Program-made: the position numbers and the translations under genes
Source of the DNA: a bacterium
GTDB lineage: Bacteria > UBA9089 > CG2-30-40-21 > SBAY01
Direction: 5' to 3'
Length of the DNA stretch: 28,434 bases
Assembly (NCBI GenBank): GCA_040757115.1
Contig: JBFLYA010000020.1
Coordinates: forward strand, 2,264 to 30,697
Shown: one piece after another, positions 12,196 to 27,769 of the stretch
Layout: the number at the start of each line of letters is the position of its first letter
How positions within the stretch are numbered: the first letter of the stretch is position 1
Notes under the pieces: generated by a model
What the model was told of the DNA's origin: nothing
The model's input: only the letters and a program-made list of their open reading frames with translations
The model's database searches: none

Positions 12196-14327
12196 GTTTT
12201 ACTCCTATAGAATATTCTTCATCTTTGCGAATTGGAACTGTTGAGTTTGTGGCTCCTGATGAAATAAAAGTTTCACTTGATTTAGAATCACCTGATGGGA
12301 TTGCCGCAAATGCAGGAGTGCCTCGTTCATTTCCTCGCATAAATAATTATGTTATTGTTCCATCGGAGGCAGGGTATATTGTAGGGCAAATTGAATGGAT
12401 CGCTGTTGAGCGTTCCCCTTTCCCAAAGCGTAAGGGTTTCCAGGATTATGGCTTGGTGGACCTCCCTTTTCCTTTACGGAAAATGCGAGTTAACCCCCTT
12501 GGTATATTAAAGGTTGATGAAGATGATAACTTTCTGTTTCGGCGTGGTGTGCAAACATTCCCCAGCATAGGCGAACCTGTGTTGATGCCTACAGATAAAC
12601 AGCTTCGTGCTATTGTTGAATCCGGCGAAAAACGTAGGGTAAAGATAGGAACCAGTCCTTTAGCCGCTAATGCGGATGTGTGTATTGATCCAGATAGACT
12701 TTTTGGCCGGCATTTAGCAGTTTTAGGGAATACGGGAAGTGGGAAATCATGTTCAGTTGCTGGTTTAATCCAATGGTCGTTAGATGCAGCTAAAAAAGAT
12801 GAGCGTAATCCTAATGCACGGTTTATTATACTTGACCCAAATGGTGAATACTCAAGAGTATTTAAGGATAGAGGTCGCATTTTTACAGTGAATGCGACTG
12901 ATAACCCTTTACAAGTGCCGTTATGGTTTTGGAATAGTGCTGAATGGTGTTCGTTCACTCAGGCTAGCGCAAAGGCACAACGGCCGTTATTGAAAAGGGC
13001 TCTCAGGGAGATTAGAATCGGGAGGTCAGATTTGACTGTCTCAACTGAAGAGGCTCAAAAACTTGAACTCAGACGCTACCTTTCATCAAATATGATCTCT
13101 ATACGAAACGACTTACAGAGTGGTGCGATAAGAACAGATGAGTCAAAGTTTGGGTTCCGGTTAAAAGCTATTCTGAATGATTTAGATGTTAAGAAAACCG
13201 TCTTTACAACATATAATATCCAGAATATTTGCGATAAAATCAAGACGGCCTTGACTGCTACCTACAAAGAGTTCACTGAAAAGCCCACAAACAAATTAGT
13301 AGAATACTATCGTGCTTTTACTGAAGAACAAGTCAATGATATATTAAATGCGTTGAACAATGTTTTTCAAGACCTTGGAGGAATTGTTTATCAAGAAGGC
13401 CCTGATGAAGATATTCCTATTTCTTTCTCTGGTGCTGAGTTTTCAGATCATCTTCAGAGTTTGGCTGAACAAGAGAATGTGAGCCAGTTCCTTGACTTTT
13501 TGATAATGCGGATTCGAACAATGCTTGCCGATACTCTTATGAAGAAAATCATCGGAGATGAAATTAACATTACCCTTGATAAATGGCTGGAAGATTATAT
13601 TGGGAAAAATAAAGCAGAGAATGGTTGTGTTACCGTCATTGATCTTTCTCTGGTTCCCACAGAAATTATACATATTACAATTGCAGTAATTGCTCGTATA
13701 ACATTCGAAGCCTTGCAACGGTATCGAAAGCTTGAAAACAATCCTTTGCCTACGGTAATGGTTATGGAGGAAGCTCACACATTTATTAAACGATACAAGG
13801 AAGATGTTGAAAATCAGAACACTGCTGCTATTTGTTGTCAAGTATTTGAGAAAATAGCGATGGAAGGGCGCAAATTTGGGTTAGGTTTAGTCCTATCTTC
13901 GCAACGTCCATCAGAACTTTCTTCAACAGTTCTCTCACAGTGTAATAGTTTTCTCTTGCATCGCATTAGTAACGATCGTGATCAAGAATTGATAAATAAA
14001 TTAGTGCCAGATAACCTTCGCGGATTGTTACGTGAGTTACCTTCTTTGCCCTCTCAAAATGCAATCTTATTGGGTTGGGCATCTGAACTCCCTGTCATGG
14101 TTAAGATGAATGATCTTTCCGACGAAGAAAGACCGCACTCAGATGACCCTGATTTTTGGGATGTTTGGACTGGAGAGAATATCGAGGGAGAAAAAGTGGT
14201 TCGTGAAGTTAATTGGAAAAAGATTGCTGATGAATGGCAATGTAAGGATGCATCTACAATCGCAAAGAGTGACAAAGTGGAGGATTTGGAACAAAACACA
14301 GAGGGAATGGATGATGTACCGTTTTGA
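12192..14327 (+). CDS. herA: HerA-like hexameric ATPase of a SIR2-HerA defence system
   Basis: A 711-residue HerA/FtsK-type ATPase. The N-terminal ~100 residues form a HAS-barrel-like region. Walker A is GNTGSGKS at 179-186, followed by FIILDPNGEYSRVF. Walker B with the glutamate pair is VMVMEEAH (E526-E527). Sensor and arginine-finger regions follow (GLGLVLSSQRPSELSSTVLS, HRISNDRDQELI). HerA assembles as a hexameric ring and partners with SIR2 in anti-phage systems. The last ~15 codons (EDLEQNTEGMDDVPF) are not HerA-like: they match the end of the DUF4263 fragment at 24489-24536, so the HerA 3' end was fused in frame to the 1.2 kb direct repeat. The long middle insert, roughly residues 255-500, is charged and helical. 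Confidence 0.87.
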   Translation: MSFTPIEYSSSLRIGTVEFVAPDEIKVSLDLESPDGIAANAGVPRSFPRINNYVIVPSEAGYIVGQIEWIAVERSPFPKRKGFQDYGLVDLPFPLRKMRVNPLGILKVDEDDNFLFRRGVQTFPSIGEPVLMPTDKQLRAIVESGEKRRVKIGTSPLAANADVCIDPDRLFGRHLAVLGNTGSGKSCSVAGLIQWSLDAAKKDERNPNARFIILDPNGEYSRVFKDRGRIFTVNATDNPLQVPLWFWNSAEWCSFTQASAKAQRPLLKRALREIRIGRSDLTVSTEEAQKLELRRYLSSNMISIRNDLQSGAIRTDESKFGFRLKAILNDLDVKKTVFTTYNIQNICDKIKTALTATYKEFTEKPTNKLVEYYRAFTEEQVNDILNALNNVFQDLGGIVYQEGPDEDIPISFSGAEFSDHLQSLAEQENVSQFLDFLIMRIRTMLADTLMKKIIGDEINITLDKWLEDYIGKNKAENGCVTVIDLSLVPTEIIHITIAVIARITFEALQRYRKLENNPLPTVMVMEEAHTFIKRYKEDVENQNTAAICCQVFEKIAMEGRKFGLGLVLSSQRPSELSSTVLSQCNSFLLHRISNDRDQELINKLVPDNLRGLLRELPSLPSQNAILLGWASELPVMVKMNDLSDEERPHSDDPDFWDVWTGENIEGEKVVREVNWKKIADEWQCKDASTIAKSDKVEDLEQNTEGMDDVPF

Positions 14328-14441
14328 AAATTTCAAGACTATGATAAAGAGCCAGAATTGTAGTGCTTGACATTATCTTCTTTAATCCTGACAATCTGCG
14401 GTCATCTGCGTCCTATAAAGAGAAAGATAAGGAAGGTATAG

Positions 14442-14600
14442 ATGCTATACTTATATCTTGATGAAAGTGGAGATTTAGGGTTTGATTTCGTGAATAAGAG
14501 ACCATCAAAGTATTTCACGATAGCCATTCTTGTGGTAAAAGGATATGAAGAAAACCGATTACTGTTAAAGGTAGTAAAGAAAACTTTAAGTCGAAGATAA
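14442..14600 (+). pseudogene. Truncated DUF3800 gene (copy 1)
   Basis: A 52-residue frame begins MLYLYLDESGDLGFDFV, which is the N-terminus of DUF3800 (conserved D-E-S-G near the start), and runs through SKYFTIAILVVKGYEENRLL. It stops at TAA 14598-14600, whereas full proteins are usually over 200 residues. The terminator of the minus-strand RNA begins 24 nt later, so that element may have replaced the rest. The copy at 24651 is truncated at the same codon. Confidence 0.75.
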
Positions 14601-14624
14601 GGTATGATTCTGTTTATTTGCCAT

Positions 14625-14718
14625 AAAAAAGAGCGTGCCTTGTGGGCTTGTTGCGCTGTGGCTTTTGCCAACCGATGGATGGGAACACCACAGACAACCC
14701 ACAACGGGCTTACCGCTC
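14625..14718 (-). ncRNA. Small hairpin RNA, copy 1
   Basis: Read on the minus strand, a GC-rich (~59%) ~88-nt hairpin ends in U6. Nested stems are GAGCG/CGCTC, GCC/GGC, TTGTGGG/CCCACAA, CTGTGG/CCACAG and an apical CCATCC/GGTTGG with one mismatch. Asymmetric bulges (GUAA on the 5' side, a single A on the 3' side) argue against a simple inverted repeat. A consensus promoter is correctly spaced upstream. It does not resemble 6S, 4.5S/SRP, tmRNA or tRNA. Function unknown; it is convergent with the truncated DUF3800 gene and divergent from the AlbA_2 gene. Confidence 0.65.
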
Positions 14719-14725
14719 AATTAAT

Positions 14726-14754
14726 AATATACTACATTTTGCTTCATTTGTCAA
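14726..14754 (-). promoter_or_regulatory. Consensus promoter for the hairpin RNA, copy 1
   Basis: On the minus strand: TTGACA (14754-14749), exactly 17 nt, TATATT (14731-14726). The first hairpin base, G14718, is 8 nt past the -10 box, a normal start position. Confidence 0.7.
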
Positions 14755-14821
14755 GCACTTTTTTTTTCAAAGTCGAGTTGTCATTTGCATTACATTTTCT
14801 ATCAAAAGCAGGAGCGATTAA

Positions 14822-14905
14822 CCCATACCTCCAGAAGAAGCAATGCAATTATTAGAGAACAAAGAAACCCAAATGGTTAAATACATGATTGGAGAAACGA
14901 TATGA
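14822..14905 (+). pseudogene. Tail of a lost upstream gene (copy 1)
   Basis: After an in-frame TAA, this reads PIPPEEAMQLLENKETQMVK then YMIGETI and a TGA overlapping the AlbA_2 start (ATGA). The same peptide, with mainly synonymous or mild changes, ends just before the AlbA_2 start at 25037-25120 and again near 26538-26610. It looks like the 3' end of a gene once translationally coupled to AlbA_2. I do not recognise the family. Confidence 0.5.
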
Positions 14906-15483
14906 CCAAAGAACAACTCCATAAACTAATTGCCCAAGGAGAAGGGCAGCGGTTAGAGTTCAAAAAATCTGTTGCTGAATTAGATAGGATTATTCAGACT
15001 TTAGCTGCCTTTGCTAATACCAATTCCGATGGCGGATGTGTCCTCATTGGAATAGGGGATAGGGGCAGAGTCAAAGAAGTGATAATTGGCAGAGAAACAG
15101 TAAGGCAAATAGCCAATAAAATCGCAGCTCATACTGACCCTGTTCTTTACCCTGAGATTGAAGTGATAAAGGAATCGGGGAATAAAGGTATCATCGTAAT
15201 CACCATAGATGGAAGTCCTAATAAACCCCATTTAGCCTTTGGCCGGGCATATAAAAGGGTAGGTTCTACCACCACACAAATGACCAGAGCAGAATATGAG
15301 AATCTGCTGTTAGCAAGACACAAAGATAAGTTTCAATTTGACTCTCAGGTTTGTGAAGGAGCTGATTTAGAAGATATTGATGAAGAAAAGGTAAGGTGGT
15401 TTTTGAGAACAGCTAAGACTAAGAGAGGATTAGCGATAGAGGAGAATGCATCTATAGCGGTTATTAACTGGAAGTTTACATAG
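14902..15483 (+). pseudogene. AlbA_2 regulator, truncated copy
   Basis: 193 residues beginning MTKEQLHKLIAQGEGQRLEF and covering the AlbA_2 DNA-binding domain (FANTNSDGGCVLIGIG, GSPNKPHLAFGRAYKRVG). It parallels the full 471-residue protein at 25117-26532 to about residue 175, then diverges into ENASIAVINWKFT and stops. The ATPase-like and winged-helix parts are missing. It may still make an isolated AlbA_2 domain, but most likely it is the broken end of the repeat. The palindromic repeat cluster starts ~30 nt later. Confidence 0.75.
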
Positions 15484-15781: not shown

Positions 15782-16501
15782 ATGAATAAGAAAAAGATAT
15801 ATCCAAAAGCAATACTTAATTGGCCGGAAGATGAGAGACCCAGGGAAAGGCTGCTTAAATATGGCGAGCATACCCTTAGCAACTCCGAACTATTGGCAAT
15901 ACTTTTGCGAACAGGCGTCCAGGGCCAGAGCGCTATAGACCTGGCAAGGGAAATACTGCAAAAATTCAAGACTTTTCGTAATTTATCGCATACCGATTTG
16001 TCCCATTGGAAAGAATTCAAAGGCCTTGGCCAGGCCAAGATTGCCCAGATAAAAGCAGCCATTGAAATAGGAAGAAGATTTAGAGAAGAAATAGTAAAAG
16101 AAAAAAAGATTAAGATAAGCTCTTCAAAAACCGTGGCAGATATTTTAATGCCGAGAATGAGGGATTTAAAGAAAGAAATCTTTAAAATCTTACTCCTGAA
16201 TTCACAAAATACAGTTATTGATATTGTAGAAATTACCGAAGGGACGGTTAATAAGGCAGACCCTATCATTCGAGAAATTTTCCAAAAGGCATTACAGTCT
16301 TTTGCTGTCTCTATAGTTTGTGTTCATAATCATCCCTCTGGTGATGTTTCTCCAAGCAAAGAAGACAGAGACTTTACAAGTGAGTTATGCAACGCAGGCA
16401 ACATAATACAGGTAAAGGTATTAGACCACATTATTATCGGTGATAATGAGTATTATAGTTTTGCAGATAAAGGTGAGCTTTATAAAAGGAGTTTTCAATG
16501 A
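15782..16501 (+). CDS. radC: RadC family JAB-domain protein
   Basis: A 239-residue RadC/DUF2466 protein. The N-terminal UPF0758 region has PRERLLKYGEHTLSNSELLA and LLRTGVQGQSAIDLA, a helix-hairpin-helix-like FKGLGQAKIAQIKAA, and a JAB metalloprotease-like domain with VCVHNHPSGDVSPSKEDRDF (H-x-H-P-S-G and the downstream S and D). Its stop overlaps the hsdM start by 4 nt (16498-16501), so it is the first gene of the type I operon. RadC-like genes are common in mobile and defence islands; the biochemical role is still debated. It looks intact. Confidence 0.88.
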   Translation: MNKKKIYPKAILNWPEDERPRERLLKYGEHTLSNSELLAILLRTGVQGQSAIDLAREILQKFKTFRNLSHTDLSHWKEFKGLGQAKIAQIKAAIEIGRRFREEIVKEKKIKISSSKTVADILMPRMRDLKKEIFKILLLNSQNTVIDIVEITEGTVNKADPIIREIFQKALQSFAVSIVCVHNHPSGDVSPSKEDRDFTSELCNAGNIIQVKVLDHIIIGDNEYYSFADKGELYKRSFQ

Positions 16502-18472
16502 ATCACGCAATTCATAATGCTATAGTAAATTTTATCTGGACAATAGCAGATGATGTTCTGCGAGATGTTTATGTTCGGGGAAAATATAGAGATGTTATCC
16601 TGCCAATGACGGTCATTCGCCGTTTCGATGCAGTGTTAGAGCCTACTAAAGAAGCAGTTCTTAAAATGAAAGAACATCTTGATGCTTCCAGAATATCCAA
16701 TCAGCATATTGCCTTATGCCAGGCTTCTGGACAGGCTTTTTACAACACCTCACCATTTACCCTTCGGGACTTAAAAGCCCGGGCAAAAAAGCAGCAACTG
16801 AAAGCAGACTTTGAAGCATATCTGGATGGTTTCTCTCCCAATGTGCAAGAAATCCTGGATAAGTTTAAATTTCGCAATCAGATACCGACAATGATAGAGG
16901 CTGATATCCTTGGACATGTTATTGAGAAATTTCTTGATCCGGTAATCAATCTAAGCTCAAAGCCGGTTTATGATGCAAACGGAAATGAAAAACTTCCAGT
17001 CTTAGATAATTATGACATGGGGACGATTTTTGAAGAGTTGATTCGCCGCTTTAATGAAGAGAATAATGAAGAAGCCGGGGAGCACTTTACCCCACGAGAT
17101 GTAGTTACGCTTATGGCAAATTTGGTTTTTCTTCCCGTTGCAGATAACATAGAGTCAAATACATATCTTATTTATGACGGTGCCTGCGGCACAGGCGGTA
17201 TGTTGACAGTTGCAGAAAATATTCTTGCAGAATTAGCCAAAAAGCATAATAAAGATGTTTCCATCCATCTCTATGGGCAAGAAATCAATCCTGAAACCTT
17301 TGCCATCAGTAAGGCAGATCTTTTATTAAAAGGAGAAGGTGAAGAAGCGGAAAATATGAAATTTGGCTCCACCCTTTCTGCGGATGCGTTTCCATCTCTT
17401 GAATTTGACTTTATGCTCTCCAATCCTCCCTATGGCAAGAGTTGGAAGACAGATTTGGAAAGGCTTGGTGGAAAGAGAGATTTTTATGACCCACGTTTTA
17501 TAATTAGCTATGCCGAGAATCCTGAATTTAGCTTGATAACCAGATCAAGTGATGGACAACTTATGTTTTTAGTGAATAAATTAAGCAAAATGAAGCACAA
17601 TACACCCTTAGGAAGCCGTATAGCTGAGGTTCATAACGGGTCATCGCTGTTTACCGGTGACGCAGGCCAGGGAGAAAGTAATATTCGGCGATGGATTATT
17701 GAGAACGATTGGCTGGAGGCTATTATCGCTTTGCCCGAAAATATGTTCTACAATACAGGTATTGCCACTTATATCTGGGTGCTTACTAATCGCAAAGCAG
17801 AGCACCGCAAAGGTAAAATCCAACTTATTGACGCCAGGGGGGTGGTATGATTCTTTACGAAAGAATTTAGGTAAGAAGAATTGTGAATTTGCAGAAGGCC
17901 ATATCCGGAAAATATGCGATTTATTGCTTTCTTTTAAAGAGACCGAGCAGTCAAAGATATTTCCTAATGAGGCATTTGGGTATTGGAAGATAGTTGTTGA
18001 ACGGCCGCTTAGATTTAAAGGAATTGACCCAAATAGAGAATATAACGCTAAAGAAATCAAAGAAATGGTTACTAAAGGACTGGCTGATGAAAATGGTGTG
18101 CCTGCAATTAAAAAAATCCATAACCCCGGCAAGACTTCCGCTAATCCTTTCTATGGTCTGTTTGAAATTGAAATTGACGGTAAGAAATGTGTGGTTGAGT
18201 ATGAACCAGATACATCTTTGCGCGATACAGAACAGGTGCCCCTACTTGAAGATGGCGGTATTGAAGCGTTCTTTAAGCGAGAAGTATTACCTTATGTGCC
18301 AGATGCCTGGCTTGATAGGTCAAAAACCCAGATTGGCTATGAAATCTCTTTCACCAGGTATTTTTATAAGCCACAGAATCTACGAACGCTGGACGAGATT
18401 ACCGCGGACATCCGGGCACTGGAGGCCGAGTCTAAAGGATTGCTGGAGCGCATCATCAAGGAGGCAGAATAA
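16498..18472 (+). pseudogene. hsdM: Type I restriction N6-adenine methyltransferase HsdM, frameshifted at a G6 run
   Basis: HsdM methylates adenine within the site read by HsdS. HsdM_N features (DVLRDVYVRGKYRDVILPMT), AGEHFTPRDVV, SAM motif I GACGTGG (just after D227) and NPPY (N309-Y312) are intact. At 17837-17842 a run of six Gs shifts LIDARG into GVV-stop at 17850. With five Gs the text continues ARG-WYDSLRKNLGKKN into the second frame, which runs to the TAA at 18470-18472. So one extra G splits an otherwise complete ~658-residue protein. This could be a real mutation, a reversible phase-variable state or an assembly error; G6 is short for phase variation. The first part alone (450 residues) retains both catalytic motifs. 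The end overlaps the next ATG by 1 nt. Confidence 0.85.
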
Positions 18473-19581
18473 TGGGTAATAACATGCCGGATAGAAAATC
18501 TGATTCAAATATTCAAAAAGCTCGAGCACCTGAATCGTCGGCTATTGTTGGCGATATTCGCCGAATGATCGAAGAAACCCGTTCATCAGTTGCCTTGACT
18601 GTTAATGTCAATCTCACTATGCTCTATTGGCGGATTGGAAAACGAATTAATGAAGAGATTCTTAAGGGGGACCGTGCAGAATACGGAAAGAAAATTGTTC
18701 TATTACTATCGCAGCGGTTGGCTGAAGAATATGGCAACAATTTTTCTGAAAAGAACTTGCGCAGAATGATGCAGTTTGCCGAAGTTTTCTCGAATGAAGG
18801 AATTGTCGTATCACTGATACGACAATTGAGTTGGACCCATTTTCTTGCCCTAATTCCTCTGAAAAAGCCGTTGCAGCGTGAATTTTATGCGGAAATGTGC
18901 CGAGTCGAACGGTGGAGCGTCCGTACCCTTCGTAAAAATATCGATTCTATGCTTTATGAGCGCACCGCGATATCCCGCAAGCCAGAAGAATTGGTCAGTA
19001 AAGAATTGGCAAAATTACGTAATGAGGGCCACCTGTCACCTAATATGATTCTCAAGGATCCCTATGTTCTTGATTTTCTCGGTGTCAAGGACCGTTATTA
19101 CGAGAAAGACCTGGAGGACGCCATCCTGCGCGAGATGGAAGCATTCATTTTGGAACTCGGAGCAGGATTCACCTTTCTCGCCCGGCAAAAGCGAATTCAG
19201 GTCGACAATGACGATTTCTATATCGACCTACTCTTTTATAACCGCAAGCTTTGCCGACTGGTGGCCGTTGAATTGAAGCTTGACGACTTTAAACCCGCGG
19301 ACAAGGATCAGATGGAACTCTATCTTCGCTGGCTGGAAAAATACGAAAGTGAACCTAACGAAAATCCGCCACTCGGTATCATTCTGTGTGCCGGAAAAAA
19401 GCAGGAACAGATTGAACTGTTAGAACTGGGTAAGTCCGATATCCATGTGGCTGAGTATTGGACCGCACTGCCACCTAAAGAATTGATGCAGAAGAAACTC
19501 CACGCCGCGATCCAACACGCCAGGATGCGACTGGATAATCGTATTACCGAAGATATTCCGGGAGATGGGGGTGCTGAATGA
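18472..19581 (+). CDS. DUF1016/YhcG-family PDDEXK nuclease within the type I operon
   Basis: A 369-residue YhcG-like protein. The N-terminal DUF1016 helical region (residues ~25-190) has LTMLYWRIGKRINEEI, NLRRMMQFAEVF and RQLSWTHFLALIPL. The C-terminal PDDEXK domain has YIDLLFYN (D252) and VAVELKLDDF (E267, K269), then DQMELYLRWL. These are common passengers in type I restriction operons; their contribution is not settled. It starts on the last base of hsdM and overlaps hsdS by 4 nt. A perfect palindrome with 13-bp arms lies at 18801-18827 inside the coding region. The ATG at 18484 is an alternative start. Confidence 0.85.
   Translation: MGNNMPDRKSDSNIQKARAPESSAIVGDIRRMIEETRSSVALTVNVNLTMLYWRIGKRINEEILKGDRAEYGKKIVLLLSQRLAEEYGNNFSEKNLRRMMQFAEVFSNEGIVVSLIRQLSWTHFLALIPLKKPLQREFYAEMCRVERWSVRTLRKNIDSMLYERTAISRKPEELVSKELAKLRNEGHLSPNMILKDPYVLDFLGVKDRYYEKDLEDAILREMEAFILELGAGFTFLARQKRIQVDNDDFYIDLLFYNRKLCRLVAVELKLDDFKPADKDQMELYLRWLEKYESEPNENPPLGIILCAGKKQEQIELLELGKSDIHVAEYWTALPPKELMQKKLHAAIQHARMRLDNRITEDIPGDGGAE
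18801..18827 (+). repeat. Perfect palindrome (13-bp arms, 1-nt centre) inside yhcG copy 1
   Basis: The left arm AATTGTCGTATCA and right arm TGATACGACAATT surround a single C at 18814, which is the first base of a Leu codon. It encodes IVVSLIRQ directly before the family's LSW(S/T)H motif. Confidence 0.9.
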
Positions 19582-20927
19582 TGTTGAAAGGCTATCCTGA
19601 ATATAAGGATTCCGGCCTTGCATGGCTGGGGAATATCCCTAAGCATTGGAAAGTGGGAAGACTCAAGCAAATCTGCCATTTGGCATATGGAGATTCTCTC
19701 CCTGATGATGTCCGATTGGCAGGTGAAGTACCTGTCTACGGTTCAAATGGGCAGGTTGGTTTCCATTTATCTGCTAACACACTGTCGCCTTGCATCGTCA
19801 TCGGTCGGAAAGGTTCGTTTGGAAAGGTAAATTACTCCTTCTGCCCAGTTTTCGCTATCGACACAACTTTCTTTGTGGATAGCCGCTTTACTAAAGCTGA
19901 TATCCGGTGGCTCTTTTACATCCTGATATGGGCACATCTCGATGCTGTCTCCAAAGATGCAGCAGTCCCAGGGCTCAATCGCGGTGAAGCGTATGCACAA
20001 CTCATACCCTACTGTCCACAGGCAGAACAGCAACACATTGCTAATTACCTCGATGCGAAGACTCGCCAGATTAATCGCTTCATCCGTAGCAAGCAGCAGT
20101 TGATTAATCTCCTCACCGAACAAAAACAGGCAGTTATTAACCAGGCTGTAACTCGAGGTATTGACCCTAATGTCCGGCTTAAACCTTCAGGAATAGATTG
20201 GCTTGGGGATATTCCAGAACATTGGATAATGAAACCACTTAAACATTGGGTTAAAATTAATACACGGGTTTTACCAGAATCAACGGATCCAAACTACGAA
20301 TTTTTATATTTGGATATTAGTGCAGTATCAACTGGATTTTTGGTAAAAGAACCGGAAAAAATGTTATTTGGTAGTTCTCCTTCAAGAGCTAGAAGAATTC
20401 TTAGCAAGGGTGATATTATCATCTCAACTGTAAGGACTTATCTAAAAGCGATCTATTTCGTTAAGGAAGATTTGCCAAATTATATCGCATCGACTGGATT
20501 TGCTGTTTTGACTCCCAATAAAGAGATATATCCAAAGTTTCTGAGCTATGTTATTCAAAGTAGATCTTTTATTGATAGTGTGACAGCTAATTCTGTTGGT
20601 GTCGCATATCCAGCTATTGCAGAAACTAAACTAGCCATGCTTCATCTTGCAATACCTCGAGATTTCATTGAACAACAAGCAATTGTAAAAAAAATAGAAA
20701 ACGAGATATCGCCACTTGAGAAAGCCATAAATAGAGCATTAAGAGAAATAGACCTCATCCGTGAATACCGCACCCGGCTTATTTCTGATGTAGTAACTGG
20801 TAAGATTGATGTGCGAGATATTTCGGTAGAACCAACAGAAGGGCTGGAAGGGTATGAGGAGTTAGATATGCTTGAAGAGGCTGATAAACAGGAAGAAGAA
20901 ATAAAAGAAATTGAGGAGGATTTGTGA
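19578..20927 (+). CDS. hsdS: Type I restriction specificity subunit HsdS
   Basis: A 449-residue HsdS with two target-recognition halves. Half 1 opens DSGLAWLGNIPKHWKVGRLK and ends with the conserved helix AEQQHIANYLDAKTRQINRF plus LLTEQKQAVINQAVTRG. Half 2 opens GIDWLGDIPEHWIMKPLKHW and ends EQQAIVKKIENEISPLEKAI and SDVVTGKIDVRD. HsdS reads the bipartite DNA target for both methylation and cleavage. The reading frame is intact even though hsdM and hsdR are broken. After GKIDVRD it carries an acidic tail (~37 residues). A second, detached copy of the GKIDVR tail lies at 21107-21142. Confidence 0.9.
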   Translation: MMLKGYPEYKDSGLAWLGNIPKHWKVGRLKQICHLAYGDSLPDDVRLAGEVPVYGSNGQVGFHLSANTLSPCIVIGRKGSFGKVNYSFCPVFAIDTTFFVDSRFTKADIRWLFYILIWAHLDAVSKDAAVPGLNRGEAYAQLIPYCPQAEQQHIANYLDAKTRQINRFIRSKQQLINLLTEQKQAVINQAVTRGIDPNVRLKPSGIDWLGDIPEHWIMKPLKHWVKINTRVLPESTDPNYEFLYLDISAVSTGFLVKEPEKMLFGSSPSRARRILSKGDIIISTVRTYLKAIYFVKEDLPNYIASTGFAVLTPNKEIYPKFLSYVIQSRSFIDSVTANSVGVAYPAIAETKLAMLHLAIPRDFIEQQAIVKKIENEISPLEKAINRALREIDLIREYRTRLISDVVTGKIDVRDISVEPTEGLEGYEELDMLEEADKQEEEIKEIEEDL

Positions 20928-20941
20928 AAGCCAATTAGGAA

Positions 20942-21097
20942 TCTCGCAAAGGCGCAAAGGACGCAAAGGACGCAAAGTAACAAGGATGAGACTTGGATTA
21001 TTGATCAATTTCAATGTTGAATTAATTAAGGATGGGATTTTACCATGATTGTAAAATAACTTGTAACCTTTGCGAGCTTTACGCCTTTGCGAGAAAT
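20942..21097 (+). repeat. MITE-like inverted-repeat element of CGCAAAGG type
   Basis: The left end TCTCGCAAAGGCGCAAAGG followed by two more ACGCAAAG units is an imperfect reverse complement of the right end (ACCTTTGCGAGCTTTACGCC onward, 21066-21097). The interior is AT-rich with no gene. Elements with this sequence style are widespread in bacteria. It sits between the hsdS stop and a stray hsdS tail. Confidence 0.6.
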
Positions 21098-21106
21098 ATT
21101 AGAATA

Positions 21107-21142
21107 GTGATAATCGGCAAGATTGATGTTAGAGGAGAATAA
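21107..21142 (+). pseudogene. hsdS: Detached HsdS C-terminal tail
   Basis: Reads VIIGKIDVRGE then TAA. This matches the usual HsdS ending (SDVVTGKIDVR in the intact gene, 20785-20820) in protein and DNA. It is probably what remains of the original hsdS 3' end, or of a second hsdS, after recombination or insertion of the preceding element. Confidence 0.6.
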
Positions 21143-21146
21143 CAAG

Positions 21147-21218
21147 GATAATGAAAAACTTGCACCACTGGTGCAAGAAATTAGGTGGGCTAAAAATATT
21201 GTCATGCTTGAATTTTAA
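21147..21218 (+). pseudogene. DUF1016 fragment between hsdS and hsdR
   Basis: Reads DNEKLAPLVQEIRWAKNIVM then LEF and TAA, matching the central DUF1016 motif normally seen as LAPLVREISWSHN. Only ~23 residues survive. It contains the palindrome at 21159-21177. Short, so identification rests on one motif. Confidence 0.55.
21159..21177 (+). repeat. Perfect palindrome (9-bp arms, 1-nt centre) in the DUF1016 fragment
   Basis: CTTGCACCA and TGGTGCAAG flank C21168, the first base of a Leu codon, four residues before the R-W that aligns with S-W. This is the same geometry as at 18801-18827. Confidence 0.85.
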
Positions 21219-21229
21219 GGAGGTCAAAG

Positions 21230-24169
21230 ATGAAGACATCTGATACCAGTGAAAAGGGGCTTGAAAATTTAATCGTTGAGTCTTTAGTTAATGAATCTGG
21301 TTATCAACAAGGAATACCAGAAGATTATGACCGAGAGCATGCCGTTGACCTGACCAAGCTTAAGTCGTTCTTAAAGGCGTCTCAGCCAAATGTTGTTGAA
21401 TCATTGGGTTTAGACGAAGAAGGTCCAAAGCAGACACAATTTCTCCACCGGCTTCAGGGTGAAATCGCAAGACGCGGAATAATTGATGTTCTCCGTAACG
21501 GTATAAAACACGGCCCGGCATCAGTAGATTTATTCTATGGCGCTCCTACCCCCGGCAATAAGAAAGCAGAAGAGCTCTTCAAGATGAACATTTTTAGCGT
21601 TACACGCCAGCTTCAATATAGCAGGGATGAAACTCAATTAGCCCTTGATTTAGTAATTTTTATCAACGGTCTACCTCTTGCTACTTTTGAGCTTAAGAAT
21701 AAGCTTACCAAACAGACCGTTGATGACGCCATACAGCAATACAAGGAAGACCGTAACCCCAAAGAGCTTTTGTTTTATTTTGGAAGGTGTATAGTCCATT
21801 TTGCTGTAGATGACCACGAGGTTTATATGTGCACACACCTTAAAGGAAAATCTTCCTGGTTTTTACCATTTAATAAAGGTTACAACGATGGGGCGGGAAA
21901 TCCTCCTAATCCAAATGGTATTGCTACTGATTATCTATGGCAAGAAATCCTTAATAAAGAGAGCTTAACCGATATCATTGAAAACTACGCTCAGAGAGTG
22001 GAAGAAAATGATGAAAAAGGTAGAAAAAAACATAAACAGATATTTCCTCGTTACCACCAACTTGATGTAGTGCGTAAACTCTTATCTGCCGCGAAAGAAG
22101 ACGATGTAGGCAAGCGGTATCTTATTCAGCACTCAACAGGAAGCGGTAAGAGTAATTCCATAGTCTGGCTTGCCCATCAGTTAATCGGCTTAAAGCACAA
22201 TGACTCCGAGATATTTAATTCAGTGATTGTTGTTACTGATAGAATCATTCTTGATAGGCAAATCCGCGATACAGTCAAACAATTCACGCAGGTAGCTGCC
22301 ACAGTCGGGCATGCTGAACGGGCAGGAGACCTGCGTCAGTTCTTAGCTTCTAAAAAGAAGATTATTATTACAACTGTCCAAAAATTCCCCTTTATACTTG
22401 ATGAAATTGGCAATGAACATCGGGGAAGCAGATTTGCCATCATTATTGATGAGGCACATTCCAGTCAAGGGGGAAGGACATCAGCAAAAATGAATGTTGT
22501 CTTATCTGACCATACCATTGATGAAGAAGAGACAATTGAAGATAAAATTAATCAGATTATGGAATCTCGCAAGATGTTAGGCAATGCCAGTTATTTTGCT
22601 TTTACTGCAACTCCAAAGAATAAAACCCTTGAAATATTTGGTTATTCTTTTGCAGAAGGAGATAAGGTAAAGCACCGGCCGTTTCATACCTATACAATGA
22701 AACAGGCAATCCAAGAAGGTTTTATTATTGATGTGCTTAAACATTATACACCTGTTGAAAGCTATTATAGATTAATAAAGACTGTTGAATACGACCCGGA
22801 ATTCGATACCCGCAAAGCCAAAAAGAAACTCAGGAGATATGTAGAGTCGCATAGTTATGCGATTAGAGAAAAGGCAGAAATAATGATTGACCATTTTCAC
22901 GATTCTGTCCTATCCCATCATAAAATTGGTGGTCAGGCAAGGGCGATGGTTGTCACAGGTAGCATTGAGCGGGCATATCAATATTATCAGGCGTTTGTTA
23001 GCTACTTACGAGAAAGAAAAAGCCCTTATAAGGCAATAGTGGCATTCTCTGGAGAGCATGAATTTGGAGGCTGTAGGGTTACTGAAACCTCTCTGAATGC
23101 ATTTCCGAGTAAAGAGATTCCAAAGAGGTTTATTCAAAACCCTTATCGCTTTTTAATAGCTGCTGATAAATTTCAGACCGGCTATGATGAACCGCTCCTT
23201 CATACTATGTATGTTGATAAGCAACTGACAGGGATTAAGGCTGTGCAGACTCTTTCTCGGTTAAATCGGGCACACCCGCTTAAATATGATACCTTTACCC
23301 TTGATTTTATGAACGATGCCGATACAATTCAAGCGGCCTTCGCAGACTATTATCGGACAACTATCCTCAGCGAAGAAACTGATCCAAATAAATTACACGA
23401 CCTTAAGGCTGCTCTTGATGCCTGACAGGTCTATAACCCTGCTCAAGTTGAAGATGTTGTAACACTATATTTAAATGGAACAGGCAGGGAACAACTCGAC
23501 CCTATACTTGATGAGTGCGTGGCTGTATATACATCTGAGTTAGATGAAGATAGCCAGGTTGATTTTAAAGGAAAGGCTAAGGCATTTGTTAGAACTTACA
23601 ATTTCCTTGCCTGCATATTACCTTATACAAATGCTGAATGGGAAAAACTATCCATATTCCTAAATTTTCTCATACCCAAGCTGCCAGCGCCGATAGAGGA
23701 TGATTTCTCAAAAGGCATACTTCAAACCGTAGATATGGATAGCTATCGTGTTGAGGTGCAGGCAACTATACAGATTAAACTTCAAGATCAGAATTCTGAA
23801 ATAGGTCCGGTGCCTACCAGTGGAGGTGGAGGCATAGCAGAACCAGAGATGGATTTACTAAGCAATATTATCAAAACATTTAACGACCAATTTGGCAACC
23901 TTGATTGGAAAGATAAGGATAAAATAGTTAAAGAGATTAGTGAGGGAATTCCGGTAAAGGTTTCAGCAGATAAAGCATATCAAAACGCTATTAAGCATTC
24001 GGATAAACAGAACGCCCGCATTGAATATGACAAAGCTTTACAGCGAGTAATGACGGCATTGGTATTAGATTATACTGAATTGTTCAAACAGTTTAGCGAT
24101 AACCCTTCTTTTAAGAGATGGCTTTCAGATTCAGTATTTAATCTGACTTATGCAACAGCAAATAGATAG
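21230..24169 (+). pseudogene. hsdR: Type I restriction translocase/endonuclease HsdR with in-frame TGA
   Basis: HsdR is the ATP-driven translocase and nuclease of type I systems. TAAGGAGGT at 21216-21224 is a strong ribosome site. The PDDEXK core is D140 with E154-x-K156 (LDLVIFINGLPLATFELKNK). The motor has HSTGSGKS (K307), IIDEAH (D407-H410), FTATPKNK, KFQTGYDEP and LSRLNRAHP. A TGA at 23423-23425 (codon 732) interrupts; the same frame then continues QVYNPAQVEDVVTLYLNG to a TAG at 24167-24169, including the helical C-terminal domain. An internal GTG at 23519 could restart translation. The first 731 residues keep nuclease and motor but lack the C-terminal region that contacts HsdM, so restriction is probably lost. 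After the TAG the frame still reads EEQKKLIEIFEAKIKAVN. Confidence 0.88.
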
Positions 24170-24536
24170 GAAGAACAAAAAAAACTCATCGAAATCTTTG
24201 AAGCAAAAATCAAAGCAGTCAACTGAGATAACAAAAGCCATCACGCAGGCGACAAGATATATTTACGAAGTGGAGCGTGAGGCAAACAGCGTTAAATTCT
24301 TGGAGAGAATGGACAATGTCAAAACTATAAAGCCTCGCTGTATTTTGATATTTGGTAGATCAAATAACTGGAATGATGAGCAAAAAGAGGCATATCGCAT
24401 TTTAAATTCAAGTTATCACAATTTAATGATAATGACTTATGACCATGTATTATTGAGAGCAAAGAGGATTTTAAATATTGACACACCGGAAGATTTGGAA
24501 CGAAATACAGAGGGAATGGATGATGTGCCGTTTTGA
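24150..24536 (+). pseudogene. Shedu-type (DUF4263) C-terminal fragment
   Basis: From about residue 28 the frame reads KAITQATRYIYEVEREANSV, then IKPRCILIFGRSNNWNDEQK and LMIMTYDHVLLRAKRIL. This matches the C-terminal part of the DUF4263/SduA domain of Shedu anti-phage nucleases. The upstream half with the catalytic E-x-K core is missing. The first ~25 residues (K/S/Q-rich) are the hsdR 3' flank read in another phase, so the junction lies near 24226. Its last 16 codons belong to the direct repeat. Not expected to be active. Confidence 0.65.
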
Positions 24537-24650
24537 AAATTTCAAGACTATGATAAAGAACCAGAATTGTAGTGCTTGACATCATCTTCTTTAATCCTGA
24601 CAATCTGCGGTAATCTGCGTCCTATAAAGAGAAAGGTAAGGAAGGTATAG

Positions 24651-24809
24651 ATGCTATACTTATATCTTGATGAAAGTGGAGATTTAGGGTTTGATTTCGT
24701 GAATAAGAAACCATCAAAGTATTTCACGATAGCCATTCTTGTGGTAAAAGGATATGAAGAAAACCGATTACTGTTAAAGGCAGTAAAGAAAACTTTAAGT
24801 CGAAGATAA
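24651..24809 (+). pseudogene. Truncated DUF3800 gene (copy 2)
   Basis: The same 52-residue fragment as at 14442, differing at two residues (K for R at 20, A for V at 44), and ending at the same TAA. The truncation therefore preceded the duplication. Confidence 0.75.
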
Positions 24810-24833
24810 GGTATGATTCTGTTTATTTGCCAT

Positions 24834-24929
24834 AAAAAAAAGAGCGTGCCTTGTGAGCTTGTTGCGCTGTGGCTTTTGCCAACCGATGGATGGGAACACC
24901 ACAGACAACCCACAACGGGCTTACCGCTC
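24834..24929 (-). ncRNA. Small hairpin RNA, copy 2
   Basis: The minus-strand counterpart of the RNA at 14625-14718, with a U8 rather than U6 tail. The one stem substitution changes CCCACAA to CUCACAA opposite UUGUGGG, replacing a G-C pair by G-U, so pairing is kept. The promoter and all other stems are unchanged. Confidence 0.65.
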
Positions 24930-24936
24930 AATTAAT

Positions 24937-24965
24937 AATATACTACATTTTGCTTCATTTGTCAA
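24937..24965 (-). promoter_or_regulatory. Consensus promoter for the hairpin RNA, copy 2
   Basis: Minus strand TTGACA (24965-24960), 17 nt, TATATT (24942-24937), unchanged from copy 1, whereas the T-run and a short CAAAGT duplication just upstream differ between copies. Confidence 0.7.
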
Positions 24966-25036
24966 GCACTTTTTTTCAAAGTCAAAGTCGAGTTGTCATT
25001 TGCATTACATTTTCTATCAAAAACAGGAGCGATTAA

Positions 25037-25120
25037 CCCAAACCTCCGGAAGAAGCGGTCCAATTATTAGAGGACAAAGAAACCCAAATGGTTAAATACA
25101 TGATTGGAGAAAAGATATGA
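25037..25120 (+). pseudogene. Tail of a lost upstream gene (copy 2)
   Basis: Reads PKPPEEAVQLLEDKETQMVK then YMIGEKI and a TGA overlapping the AlbA_2 ATG. Equivalent to 14822-14905. Confidence 0.5.
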
Positions 25121-26532
25121 CTAAAGAACAACTCTATAAACTAATTGCTCAAGGTGAAGGGCAGCGGTTAGAGTTCAAAAAATCTGTGGCTGAATTGAAC
25201 AGAATCATTCAGACCCTGGCTGCCTTTGCTAATACCAATTCCGATGGCGGATGTGTCCTCATTGGAATAGGGGATAGTGGCAGAGTCAAAGAAGTGATAA
25301 TTGGCAGAGAAACAGTAAGGCAAATAGCCAATAAAATCGCAGCTCATACTGACCCTGTTCTTTACCCTGAGATTGAAGTGATAAAGGAATCGGGGAATAA
25401 AGGTATCATCGTAATCACCATAGATGGAAGTCCTAATAAACCCCATTTAGCCTTTGGCCGGGCATATAAAAGGGTAGGCTCTACCACCACACAAATGACC
25501 AGGGATGAATATGAGAGGTTGTTGTTAGTAAAACATGAAAATAAGTTTCAATTCGATTCTCAGGTTTGTGAAGGATCTACCATTGAAGATATTGACGAAG
25601 AAAAGATGAAATGGTTTTTGAGAATTGCAAGAGCAAAAAGGGGGGTAACATTAAACGACGAGATCTCTGTGGAGGAATTTCTAATACATCTACAGCTTGT
25701 AAGTAAAGCTGGGTTGACTAATGCGGCAGTTATGTTGTTTGGCAAAAGTCCACATCGGTTTTTCTTGCAATCTGAAATTAAATGTATTGCTTTGCCTACT
25801 ATGGAGTTTATAAAACCCTACACTACTTATCAGGCTCATGGAGGTAATTTATTTGAACAGGCTGATAAAACATTGGCATTTATTCTTGATAATATAAAAA
25901 GACCACTATGGATTAAAGCAGGAGAAATGACAGCGAGACACCCTTATGAAATACCTGAAGAAGCAGTACGAGAGGCAGTCGTTAATGCCATCATCCATAG
26001 AGATTATATGAGCCCTTCCAAGGTGCAAATCAGAGTATTTCCAAACAGAGTTGAGATATGGAATCCAGGAAAGCTGCCACCTCAACTAAGCGTTGATGAT
26101 CTAAGGAAACCCCATCCGTCGCTACCGTACAACCCTTTACTTTTCAGACAGTTTTATAGAGCCAGTTATGTTGAAGATGTTGGCGGTGGAACTATCGATA
26201 TCATTAAGAGTTGCACGGACGCCAACTTACCGGAACCAAAATTTGAACAGAAAATGGGAAGTTTTATTCTTACAATATATCGTTCACCCTTGACAGACGA
26301 ATATCTTGATAATAAGAAGCTCAGTGAGAGGCAAAAGAATTCGATTAGTCATATTGAGAAGCATGGAAAGATGGGGCGGAAAGAATATGAAGAATTATAC
26401 AATGTTTCAGGAAGAACTGCTAACAGAGAATTGAATGATTTGTCTAAGAAAGGTCTAATCAAAAAAATAGGTAGTGGCCCAGGCACATACTATGTTTTGG
26501 CGAGATATGGCGAGATATGGCGAGATAAATAA
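25117..26532 (+). CDS. AlbA_2/RecG-like ATP-binding transcriptional regulator, full length
   Basis: 471 residues. The AlbA_2 domain covers ~15-130 (GQRLEFKKSV, FANTNSDGGCVLIGIGD, HLAFGRAYKRVGS). The GHKL/HATPase_c_4-like domain follows (IPEEAVREAVVNAIIHRDYM, VEIWNPGKLPPQLSVDDLRK, YNPLLFRQFYRASYVEDVGG). A C-terminal winged helix (GRKEYEELYNVSGRTANREL) ends the protein. Such proteins are putative DNA-binding regulators frequent in defence islands. The last ~10 residues (LARYGEIWRDK) come from a 10-bp tandem repeat. This is the intact version of the broken copy at 14902 and of the stubs at 26607 and 27747. Confidence 0.83.
   Translation: MTKEQLYKLIAQGEGQRLEFKKSVAELNRIIQTLAAFANTNSDGGCVLIGIGDSGRVKEVIIGRETVRQIANKIAAHTDPVLYPEIEVIKESGNKGIIVITIDGSPNKPHLAFGRAYKRVGSTTTQMTRDEYERLLLVKHENKFQFDSQVCEGSTIEDIDEEKMKWFLRIARAKRGVTLNDEISVEEFLIHLQLVSKAGLTNAAVMLFGKSPHRFFLQSEIKCIALPTMEFIKPYTTYQAHGGNLFEQADKTLAFILDNIKRPLWIKAGEMTARHPYEIPEEAVREAVVNAIIHRDYMSPSKVQIRVFPNRVEIWNPGKLPPQLSVDDLRKPHPSLPYNPLLFRQFYRASYVEDVGGGTIDIIKSCTDANLPEPKFEQKMGSFILTIYRSPLTDEYLDNKKLSERQKNSISHIEKHGKMGRKEYEELYNVSGRTANRELNDLSKKGLIKKIGSGPGTYYVLARYGEIWRDK
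26498..26527 (+). repeat. Three tandem 10-bp repeats at the 3' end of the AlbA_2 gene
   Basis: TGGCGAGATA occurs three times. The unit is not a multiple of three, so loss or gain of a copy changes the C-terminal frame and stop. Confidence 0.85.
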
Positions 26533-26537
26533 AAAAT

Positions 26538-26660
26538 AGAAGAAGCAATGCAATTATTAGAGGACAAAGAAACCCAAATGGTTAAATACATGATTGGAGA
26601 AACGCTATGACCAAAGAACAACTCCATAAACTAATTGCCCAGGGAGGAGGGCAATTTTAA
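26538..26660 (+). repeat. Third, short copy of the AlbA_2 5' region
   Basis: AGAAGAAGCAATGCAATTAT through the AlbA_2 ATG at 26607 matches 14833 onward and 25048 onward. The AlbA_2 frame reads MTKEQLHKLIAQGGGQF and stops at 26660 after 17 residues. Only the last part of the 1.2 kb repeat's non-coding section is present. Confidence 0.8.
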
Positions 26661-26674
26661 AGAGGTAATTTACT

Positions 26675-27769
26675 ATGAGAAAAGAAGAGATAACCACAGG
26701 AGTTTATAATGACTTTCTTGGCAGGATTGCTAAGATTCTGGTTGAGGCAAGAACTAAGGTAACAAGAGAGATAAACACGACTCAGGTATTAGCCTATTGG
26801 GAGATTGGCAGAGAGATTGTCGAGTTTGAGCAGAAAGGTAAGGCACGGGCGGAATATGGTGGAAAGGTTCTTATCAAGTTATCTGATGATTTAACACAAA
26901 AATTTGGCAGGGGTTTCTCTATGGATAATTTGCAGTTAATGAGAAGGTTTTACTCAACATATCCAGATAAATTTCAAATTTACGAGACAGCGTCTCGTAA
27001 ATCTCTTCAACAGACCTTGTCTGACCAATTTGTACCAATGCTATCCTGGTCATGCTATTGTGAATTGTTAAAAGTAGATGAACCTCTTGCTCGATCTTTT
27101 TACGAGCAAGAAGCAATTCAAAGTAACTGGTCAGTAAGAGAATTAAAAAGACAGATTAACTCAATGCTCTTTGAACGACTGGCTCTTAGTAAAGATACCA
27201 AAGCAGTAATGGAGATGGCAAAGGAAGGACAGATTATAGAAAAGCCAGAGGATGCAATTAAAGACCCTTATATCCTGGAGTTTCTTAATCTTAAGGAAGA
27301 GACATCTTATACAGAAAACCAATTAGAACAAGCGATTATTGATAAACTCCAACATTTCCTTCTGGAGATGGGTAAGGGTTTTAGTTTTGTCGCCCACCAA
27401 AAGAGAATAACTATCGCTAATCGGCATTATTATATTGATCTGGTCTTCTATAACCGCTTCTTGCGATGTTTTGTCTTGATAGACTTAAAGAGTGGTGAGC
27501 TTGACCACGCTGATATTGGTCAGATGAATTTCTACCTGAACTATTACAAGGAGAATGAGAAGACAGAAGAAGAGAATGACCCCATAGGTCTTGTTCTCTG
27601 TGCCAAGAAAGATGATATCTTTGCCAAGTATATCTTAGGCGGATTAAACAACAAGGTCTTTGCTTCCAAGTATAAATTGGCACTACCCTCGGAGAAGGAA
27701 CTAAGTAGTAAGCTCAAATCAATCCCATTATTAGTGGAGGAACAACATGACCAAAGACCAACTCTATAG
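26675..27769 (+). CDS. DUF1016/YhcG-family PDDEXK nuclease, second copy
   Basis: A 364-residue protein related to that at 18472. The N-terminal helical part has TTQVLAYWEIGREIVEFEQK, NLQLMRRFYSTYP and LSWSCYCELLK. The nuclease domain has YYIDLVFYNRFL (D255) and VLIDLKSGELD (D270, K272), using D-x-K where copy 1 has E-x-K, then QMNFYLNYY. It stands alone next to AlbA_2 remnants rather than in an hsd operon. Palindromes lie at 26978-27002 and 27085-27111. The last residues (EEQHDQRPTL) overlap an AlbA_2 start stub at 27747 in another phase, so the original C-terminus may differ. Confidence 0.83.
   Translation: MRKEEITTGVYNDFLGRIAKILVEARTKVTREINTTQVLAYWEIGREIVEFEQKGKARAEYGGKVLIKLSDDLTQKFGRGFSMDNLQLMRRFYSTYPDKFQIYETASRKSLQQTLSDQFVPMLSWSCYCELLKVDEPLARSFYEQEAIQSNWSVRELKRQINSMLFERLALSKDTKAVMEMAKEGQIIEKPEDAIKDPYILEFLNLKEETSYTENQLEQAIIDKLQHFLLEMGKGFSFVAHQKRITIANRHYYIDLVFYNRFLRCFVLIDLKSGELDHADIGQMNFYLNYYKENEKTEEENDPIGLVLCAKKDDIFAKYILGGLNNKVFASKYKLALPSEKELSSKLKSIPLLVEEQHDQRPTL
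26978..27002 (+). repeat. Perfect palindrome (11-bp arms, 3-nt centre) inside yhcG copy 2
   Basis: ATTTACGAGAC and GTCTCGTAAAT flank AGC; the centre base G26990 is the first base of a codon. It encodes IYETASRK, the stretch that aligns with the palindrome-encoded IVVSLIRQ of copy 1. Confidence 0.9.
27085..27111 (+). repeat. Inverted repeat (9-bp arms, 9-nt loop) inside yhcG copy 2
   Basis: TCTTGCTCG and CGAGCAAGA flank a 9-nt loop within codons for PLARSFYEQEA. No counterpart is present in copy 1. Confidence 0.75.

Follow-up and report, generated by a model that had tools for sequence, protein, structure and literature searches.

A stretch of 28,434 nucleotides from a bacterium of the GTDB lineage UBA9089 (assembly GCA_040757115.1, contig JBFLYA010000020.1, positions 2,264 to 30,697 of the forward strand; hereafter referred to as the window) contains two genes and one putative gene remnant of the DUF1016/YhcG family, each featuring a perfect palindrome within its coding frame. 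Each palindrome very probably serves as the DNA-binding site that the product of its own gene recognizes. A role as DNA target, which a preliminary description of the window had listed among several options, is strongly supported, since palindrome bases covary with the ParB-like recognition residues of the encoded protein.

The first intact gene (gene 1; 18472..19581, plus strand, 369 amino acids) is located between hsdM and hsdS genes, and the second one (gene 2; 26675..27769, plus strand) encodes 364 amino acids. In both deduced proteins the domains DUF1016_N (PF17761) and YhcG_C (PF06250) scored above the curated Pfam cut-offs, with E-values of 6e-47 and 3e-46 for gene 1 and of 2e-44 and 6e-58 for gene 2, respectively. 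An inverted-repeat scan located the palindrome AATTGTCGTATCA-C-TGATACGACAATT in gene 1 (18801..18827; arm, spacer and arm of 13+1+13), predicted to be the site of the gene's own product, and ATTTACGAGAC-AGC-GTCTCGTAAAT in gene 2 (26978..27002; 11+3+11), both at the location termed site B. The third palindrome, CTTGCACCA-C-TGGTGCAAG (21159..21177; 9+1+9), lies in a putative DUF1016 remnant without start codon between hsdS and hsdR (21132..21218, plus strand, NEKLAPLVQEIRWAKNIVMLEF). This remnant is too short for a Pfam test; its core peptide is identical in a longer gene of a relative (L007, LAPLVQEISWAKNIV), and its palindrome would be an orphan site lacking its reader. When arms of 9 or more and spacers of at most 8 base pairs (bp) are required, the three palindromes are the sole perfect inverted repeats in the window; a first-order Markov simulation predicted 1.25 repeats for arms of 9 or longer and 0.35 for arms of 10 or longer. 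Coordinates and arm lengths given in the preliminary description were confirmed, as was the placement of all three centers on the first base of a codon in the DUF1016 frame. Its statement that the codon is the same in all three cases is correct regarding the homologous position, directly after the recognition helix. The distance to the SW motif is not fixed, however, since an additional tandem unit (LQQTLSDQF) separates the palindrome from LSW in gene 2; likewise, the distance of four residues reported for two cases was measured as 4–6 residues before (S/R)W in gene 1 and the remnant.

Within the source genome, all four DUF1016 genes contain a palindrome, as do nearly all of those in its relatives, with differing sequences. 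For analysis of the whole family, 204 distinct full-length DUF1016 genes (first set) and finally 372 genes from many phyla of bacteria and archaea were considered, this sample being what the searches returned; synonymous-codon shuffles and a downstream control stretch served as controls. The 204 genes yielded 130 perfect palindromes at a minimum arm length of 9 bp vs. 5.5 in the shuffles, 100 vs. 0.6 at a minimum of 11 bp, and 50 vs. 0.1 at a minimum of 13 bp. A single alignment column represents the center of 86 of the 130 palindromes, and 118 are centered on the first codon base. Furthermore, a second palindrome location (site A) was identified exactly 36 codons (108 bp) upstream of site B. 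Regarding the whole set, 337 of 372 genes showed at least 10 of 13 complementary pairs anywhere in the stretch flanking the recognition helix, compared to 21 in the shuffles and to 15 of 358 for the downstream control stretch; 65 genes were fully perfect vs. none after shuffling. The excess at this codon over codon-shuffled controls, proposed beforehand as a check, is thus large. Pairing mostly exceeds 0.8 at offsets 2 to 12 (positions counted from the dyad), amounts to 0.61 at offset 13 and falls to the background (0.17) at offset 14, which defines a palindrome unit of approximately 25–27 bp in which central mismatches are tolerated. Moreover, eight genes lacking a palindrome in the usual phase possess at least 11 of 13 pairs at the same place, centered on the third codon base, which argues that the constraint acts on the DNA and not on the peptide. 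A protein-only cause was rejected on account of these phase-shifted genes and the synonymous shuffles, in agreement with the earlier assumption that protein-level constraint alone would not easily produce perfect symmetry. Arm sequences are highly varied between genes. Conservation of symmetry rather than sequence, as previously suggested, therefore applies across the family, whereas the sequence found in a given gene fits the DNA-reading residues of that same gene. One DUF1016 gene (L041) additionally contains a palindrome of 16+1 bp, AGAAACCAGGTTTTTT-C-AAAAAACCTGGTTTCT, within its nuclease-coding part (codons 252–264), which is unlike the usual sites.

This match between residues and bases became apparent when mutual information was calculated for palindrome bases paired with protein columns that lie outside the palindrome. 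The top-ranking pair was offset 7 and column 89 (z 8.6), the latter located in the recognition helix, and offset 3 with column 145 reached z 7.5, where the alignment-defined columns could be off by one. A sliding-window distance correlation yielded weak peaks, and the pairwise mutual information was far clearer. Rules were fixed in advance, and 172 newly fetched genes were then used as held-out set. Therein, Arg89 was accompanied by G7 (guanine at offset 7) in 59 of 60 genes and Lys89 by C7 in 11 of 11; Lys145 coincided with C3 (22/22), Thr or Ser145 with G3 (14/14) and Val145 with A or T at offset 3 (24/25), while the association of Arg145 with C3 was weaker (37/46). Column 117 tracks offsets 2–3, and Gly117 occurred with C3A2 in 42 of 42 cases. 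On a tree calculated from the nuclease domain only, 45 path-independent pairs differing in G7 were obtained, of which 37 were concordant and none discordant for Arg89 (p 1.5e-11); in these contrasts column 89 ranked first of 311 columns, with 0.82 vs. 0.20 for the runner-up. Furthermore, in 16 genomes encoding several paralogues, the residues predicted the protein's own palindrome correctly in 124 of 130 tests. When residues were shuffled among paralogues, on average 56% of the predictions were right, and 124 of 130 was never reached in 20,000 tries. Half-sites of paralogues from the same genome differ in 113 of 115 pairs, as expected if each paralogue should recognize itself only. This covariation between reader and site was shown by computation, as were the palindromes themselves, their uniqueness in the genomes searched and the ParB-like fold described below.

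Both intact genes of the window conform to the code. In gene 1, the ParB-like recognition-helix codons FSEKNLRRMMQF (18742..18777, plus strand), assigned by profile alignment to ParB and by covariation, include K94, which corresponds to column 89 and is the predicted offset-7 reader. Codon T122 (column 117, SWTH motif; 18835..18837, plus strand) covaries with offsets 2–3 and is aligned near ParB residue 201 (PMC7383237), and covariation marks V150 (column 145, WSVR; 18919..18921, plus strand) as the predicted offset-3 reader. The gene 1 palindrome fits with the combinations K89–C7 and V145–T3. Covariation analysis likewise placed the recognition-helix codons of gene 2, FSMDNLQLMRRF, at 26915..26950 (plus strand), with D84 representing column 89; the combinations found are D89–C7 and V145–A3. 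Judged from covariation, the recognition helix and the following helices are thus predicted to read bases of the palindromic site by means of columns 89, 117 and 145.

Structure and profile matches indicate that DUF1016_N is distantly related to the DNA-binding domain of ParB, Noc and KorB. The N-domain alone was modeled by AlphaFold with a predicted local distance difference test score (pLDDT) of 90, and the first 17 Foldseek rows as well as the first 12 VIA rows obtained with this model were all ParB/Noc/Spo0J DNA-binding domains. The best matches were Noc (7nfu_A; Z 9.6, root-mean-square deviation 3.1 over 99 residues) and 6y93_A (Z 9.2 over 103/105 residues), the first unrelated structure followed at Z 6.4, and KorB and SopB scored lower than ParB/Noc/Spo0J. 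No solved structures were related to DUF1016 by sequence. At the profile level, Pfam HTH_ParB gave weak matches in 14 of 54 members (best E 1.3e-4), and the profile–profile alignment of DUF1016 with ParB reached a probability of 87% (P 4.4e-6); when individual ParB proteins were used as hhalign targets instead, the DUF1016 profile returned no match. In the profile–profile alignment the recognition helices coincide and SWSH is placed on the SxGHAR motif, so the palindromes encode the helices immediately before and after the DNA-recognition helix. In ParB, recognition-helix residue Arg173 forms a bond to parS guanine 1, which is base seven counted from the dyad, and position 6 of parS is read by residue 201 (PMC7383237). 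Since the arginine–guanine chemistry and its distance from the dyad are the same in DUF1016, docking of DUF1016_N in a ParB-like manner is supported. An N-terminal ParB CTPase domain was absent from the Pfam matches of the 54 members at E ≤ 10, and the domain is therefore regarded as a ParB-like reader, yet not classed as ParB. Kosinski et al. (2005) found no fold for the YhcG/DUF1016 N-domain. The C-terminal part matches the PD-(D/E)XK fold with invariant D252 and K269 and is a predicted nuclease, whose fold resembles Holliday-junction resolvase and EndoMS types.

Direct searches revealed the site to be almost confined to its host gene. The gene 1 palindrome is single-copy in its own genome with up to 3 mismatches allowed, and a common palindrome version was, in 17 genomes, essentially limited to the pair of DUF1016 sites spaced by 108 bp; three weaker matches at other places, each with three mismatches, were unannotated, and a reversed-pattern control gave none. 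In E. coli (3,526 genomes), all 30 of the matches listed are located within yhcG or DUF1016 genes; the median was two places, corresponding to both strands of one palindrome. Scans of viral contigs found almost nothing. Many similar copies outside the host gene were not seen in the own genome, the 17 genomes, plasmids or E. coli, and a dispersed mobile repeat was rejected on the basis of these searches. A lone near-palindrome of the AATTGTCTCGACACTGTCG type was noticed on a Legionella anisa plasmid (L255, approximately 2001–2027) outside any recognizable DUF1016 gene; possibly, it is a remnant site. Many genomes contain DUF1016 fragments and several paralogues, whose frequency suggests rapid gain, decay and replacement.

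Alleles of E. coli yhcG illustrate how reader and site change. The K89 allele has C7 and the R89 allele G7 in the first palindrome. Outside codons 81–140 the two alleles show no more than 4 differences in any block of 30 bases, compared to 6–13 of about 18–30 within these codons, which comprise the recognition helix and the palindromes; helix and site thus change as one cassette. E. coli K-12 yhcG possesses three tandem palindromes 39 bp apart and another E. coli allele one unit, and tandem units are present in many DUF1016 genes. The assumption that only the first unit is cognate, with all subsequent units being fossils, was dropped, because the code is obeyed in 66 of 86 first and 96 of 121 later units. 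Deletion of yhcG is synthetically lethal with dnaB, dnaN and parE alleles (PMC2672614). In many E. coli genomes yhcG is broken (L473, L474, L475, L476): in E. coli B and a relative it is truncated at bp 406, inside the palindrome and near a transposase gene, and in E. coli ECCWS199 the remnant begins at bp 385, adjoining IS1.

Several observations weigh against cognate binding or its proposed role. G7 is also found in 12 of 71 held-out genes without Arg89, and the mutual-information discovery set and the tree test have genes in common. The profile alignment sets column 89 one residue off ParB Arg173, which is within alignment uncertainty. Moreover, the palindromes extend to offset 12–13, beyond the 7–8 bp of ParB half-sites, and reading in the manner of ParB does not account for their outer arms (offsets 9–13). 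Approximately 9% of the genes show fewer than 10 of 13 pairs, and a few seem siteless. Finally, no promoter copy of the palindrome was found in the genomes searched with up to 3 mismatches, which would have backed autoregulation.

Taken as cognate sites, the palindromes would be bound as follows. The ParB/Noc/KorB-like helix-turn-helix of DUF1016_N, presumably as a dimer, would read the palindrome of approximately 25–27 bp, which occupies the codons for the helix that directly follows the recognition helix (site B) and, in some genes, additionally those for the helix directly before it (site A). Arg, Lys, Gln and similar residues at column 89 would contact offset 7, and residues 145 and 117 offsets 2–3. 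As reader and site are encoded within approximately 60 codons, one recombination event would alter both, so that specificity may diversify while self-recognition is kept. Physical binding, dimerization and their downstream consequence are inferred. Provided that binding takes place, negative autoregulation would be the most likely role, with about an even chance of being correct; it is the simplest one, since the site is intragenic and the genomes searched contain no other strong match. A DNA-bound roadblock or intragenic operator could keep a potentially harmful nuclease at a low level, and such an operator would travel with the gene into any promoter context. Possible alternatives to autoregulation are self-directed nicking or recombination, and tethering or sequestration.

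Among the competing explanations, a self-addressed nuclease accepts the same binding and differs in its purpose. The helix-turn-helix would bring the PD-(D/E)XK domain to its own gene, the sole genomic target, where it would nick, cut or resolve the palindrome, perhaps as a cruciform, either to stimulate recombination by which the helix-plus-palindrome cassette is copied or exchanged, or to exclude second or rival copies of an identical allele. In this scenario, one short DNA block would contain both reader and target as they evolve. The fold matches to Holliday-junction resolvases and EndoMS-type enzymes are in line with this idea, as are the common DUF1016 fragment copies and the cassette of approximately 180 bp that differs as a block between E. 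coli alleles. However, ordinary recombination under diversifying selection explains the block differences equally well, cutting of the own single-copy site would harm the host chromosome, and the E. coli breakpoints in or near the palindrome adjoin transposase genes in already broken genes. We consider this explanation rather unlikely. A partner protein, e.g., HsdS or another regulator, could read the palindrome instead of DUF1016, given the location of gene 1 between hsdM and hsdS and the association of E. coli YhcG with HsdMRS, and also McrABC, in a proteomic network (PMC2672614). This is hardly probable, since the covarying residues sit in the DNA-reading domain of DUF1016, each paralogue predicts its own site within a genome, and yhcG of E. 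coli is located beside nan and glt genes and not in an hsd operon.

Two further proposals dispense with a protein reader. A perfectly self-complementary coding segment could fold into an mRNA hairpin that acts in translational control or in RNA cleavage, with a stem of 12–13 bp in which central mismatches are tolerated. This option, raised in the preliminary description, is disfavored, because G·U-type mismatches at offsets 4–12 are no commoner than A·C-type mismatches (0.038 vs. 0.053 per synonymous opportunity) and an Rfam search returned no family at the site; moreover, covariation with recognition-helix residues is left unexplained, and the hairpin is highly improbable. Similarly, a mobile palindromic element, or quasi-palindrome correction by template switching, could generate symmetry devoid of DNA function. 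Variable numbers of tandem units (three in E. coli K-12, a single unit in another E. coli allele), the lone remnant-like copy on the Legionella plasmid and the known in-frame palindromic repeats of Rickettsia are compatible with such a process. It is contradicted by the held-out Arg89–G7 and residue-145 code, and the sequences are not dispersed in genomes and their arms differ between genes, rendering it highly improbable. The hot spot at which one arm templates the other, suggested previously, fails to explain the arginine–guanine code and is retained as a possible mutational route by which sites are created.

Further features of the window were recorded. A direct duplication of 1.15 kb with 94% identity comprises positions 14264–15409 and 24473–25624, with a third copy of 116 bp at 26538–26653. 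Each of the two long copies contains one minus-strand match to the Rfam DUF3800-V RNA (RF02964), at 14626–14724 and 24837–24935. The hsdM-like gene (16498–18472) consists of two overlapping frames (16498–17850 and 17657–18472) and is therefore frameshifted or affected by an assembly error. The hsdR-like gene (21230–24169) contains an in-frame TGA at 23423–23425, and the same frame resumes from 23519.

Among known systems, ParB–parS and Noc with its Noc-binding sites (NBS) are the closest in kind: a homologous-looking helix-turn-helix domain reads a palindrome, a recognition-helix arginine contacts the guanine seven bp from the dyad, and a second specificity position follows the helix (PMC7383237). 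In contrast, ParB and Noc sites are mostly outside the own gene and common to large clades, whereas DUF1016 sites lie inside the own open reading frame and are highly diverse; moreover, DUF1016 proteins feature a PD-(D/E)XK nuclease and no detected ParB CTPase domain, and their palindrome is longer and odd-centered. KorB of plasmid RK2 also has a ParB-family DNA-binding domain, although its structural match is weaker. Its operator OB is an odd palindrome with a central S and functions in transcriptional regulation. KorB sites are located in promoters of many genes, DUF1016 sites inside their own gene. A protein's binding site within its own coding sequence is also known from parS inside Bacillus subtilis spo0J and from other intragenic operators. 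The spo0J case concerns one conserved site in one gene, whereas in DUF1016 the arrangement is family-wide, and site and reader co-diversify beside the recognition helix. Rickettsia palindromic elements also place in-frame palindromic DNA in coding sequences; they are approximately 100–150 nucleotides long, dispersed and selfish, in contrast to the gene-specific, non-dispersed DUF1016 palindromes of 19–39 bp (Ogata et al., cited in PMC4316617). The open-access papers searched contained no prior account of YhcG palindromes, nor of an N-domain resembling ParB. The family-wide, co-diversifying arrangement of reader and site is new to us, own-gene sites being previously known in single cases; if the nuclease acts on its own gene, the arrangement could become categorically new.

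The functionally uncharacterized nuclease family DUF1016/YhcG is widespread among bacteria and archaea, where it is often encoded beside restriction systems. Its N-domain now gains a predicted DNA-reading role and a named fold, and for most genes a predicted target sequence can be given. The partial residue-to-base code is testable at once in E. coli K-12, and hundreds of reader–site pairs represent a natural data set for protein–DNA recognition. The results also indicate that a protein segment can be shaped by constraint on the DNA so strongly that analysis at the protein level is misled. In general, placing a reader's site inside its own specificity-coding region would keep self-recognition while specificity shifts.

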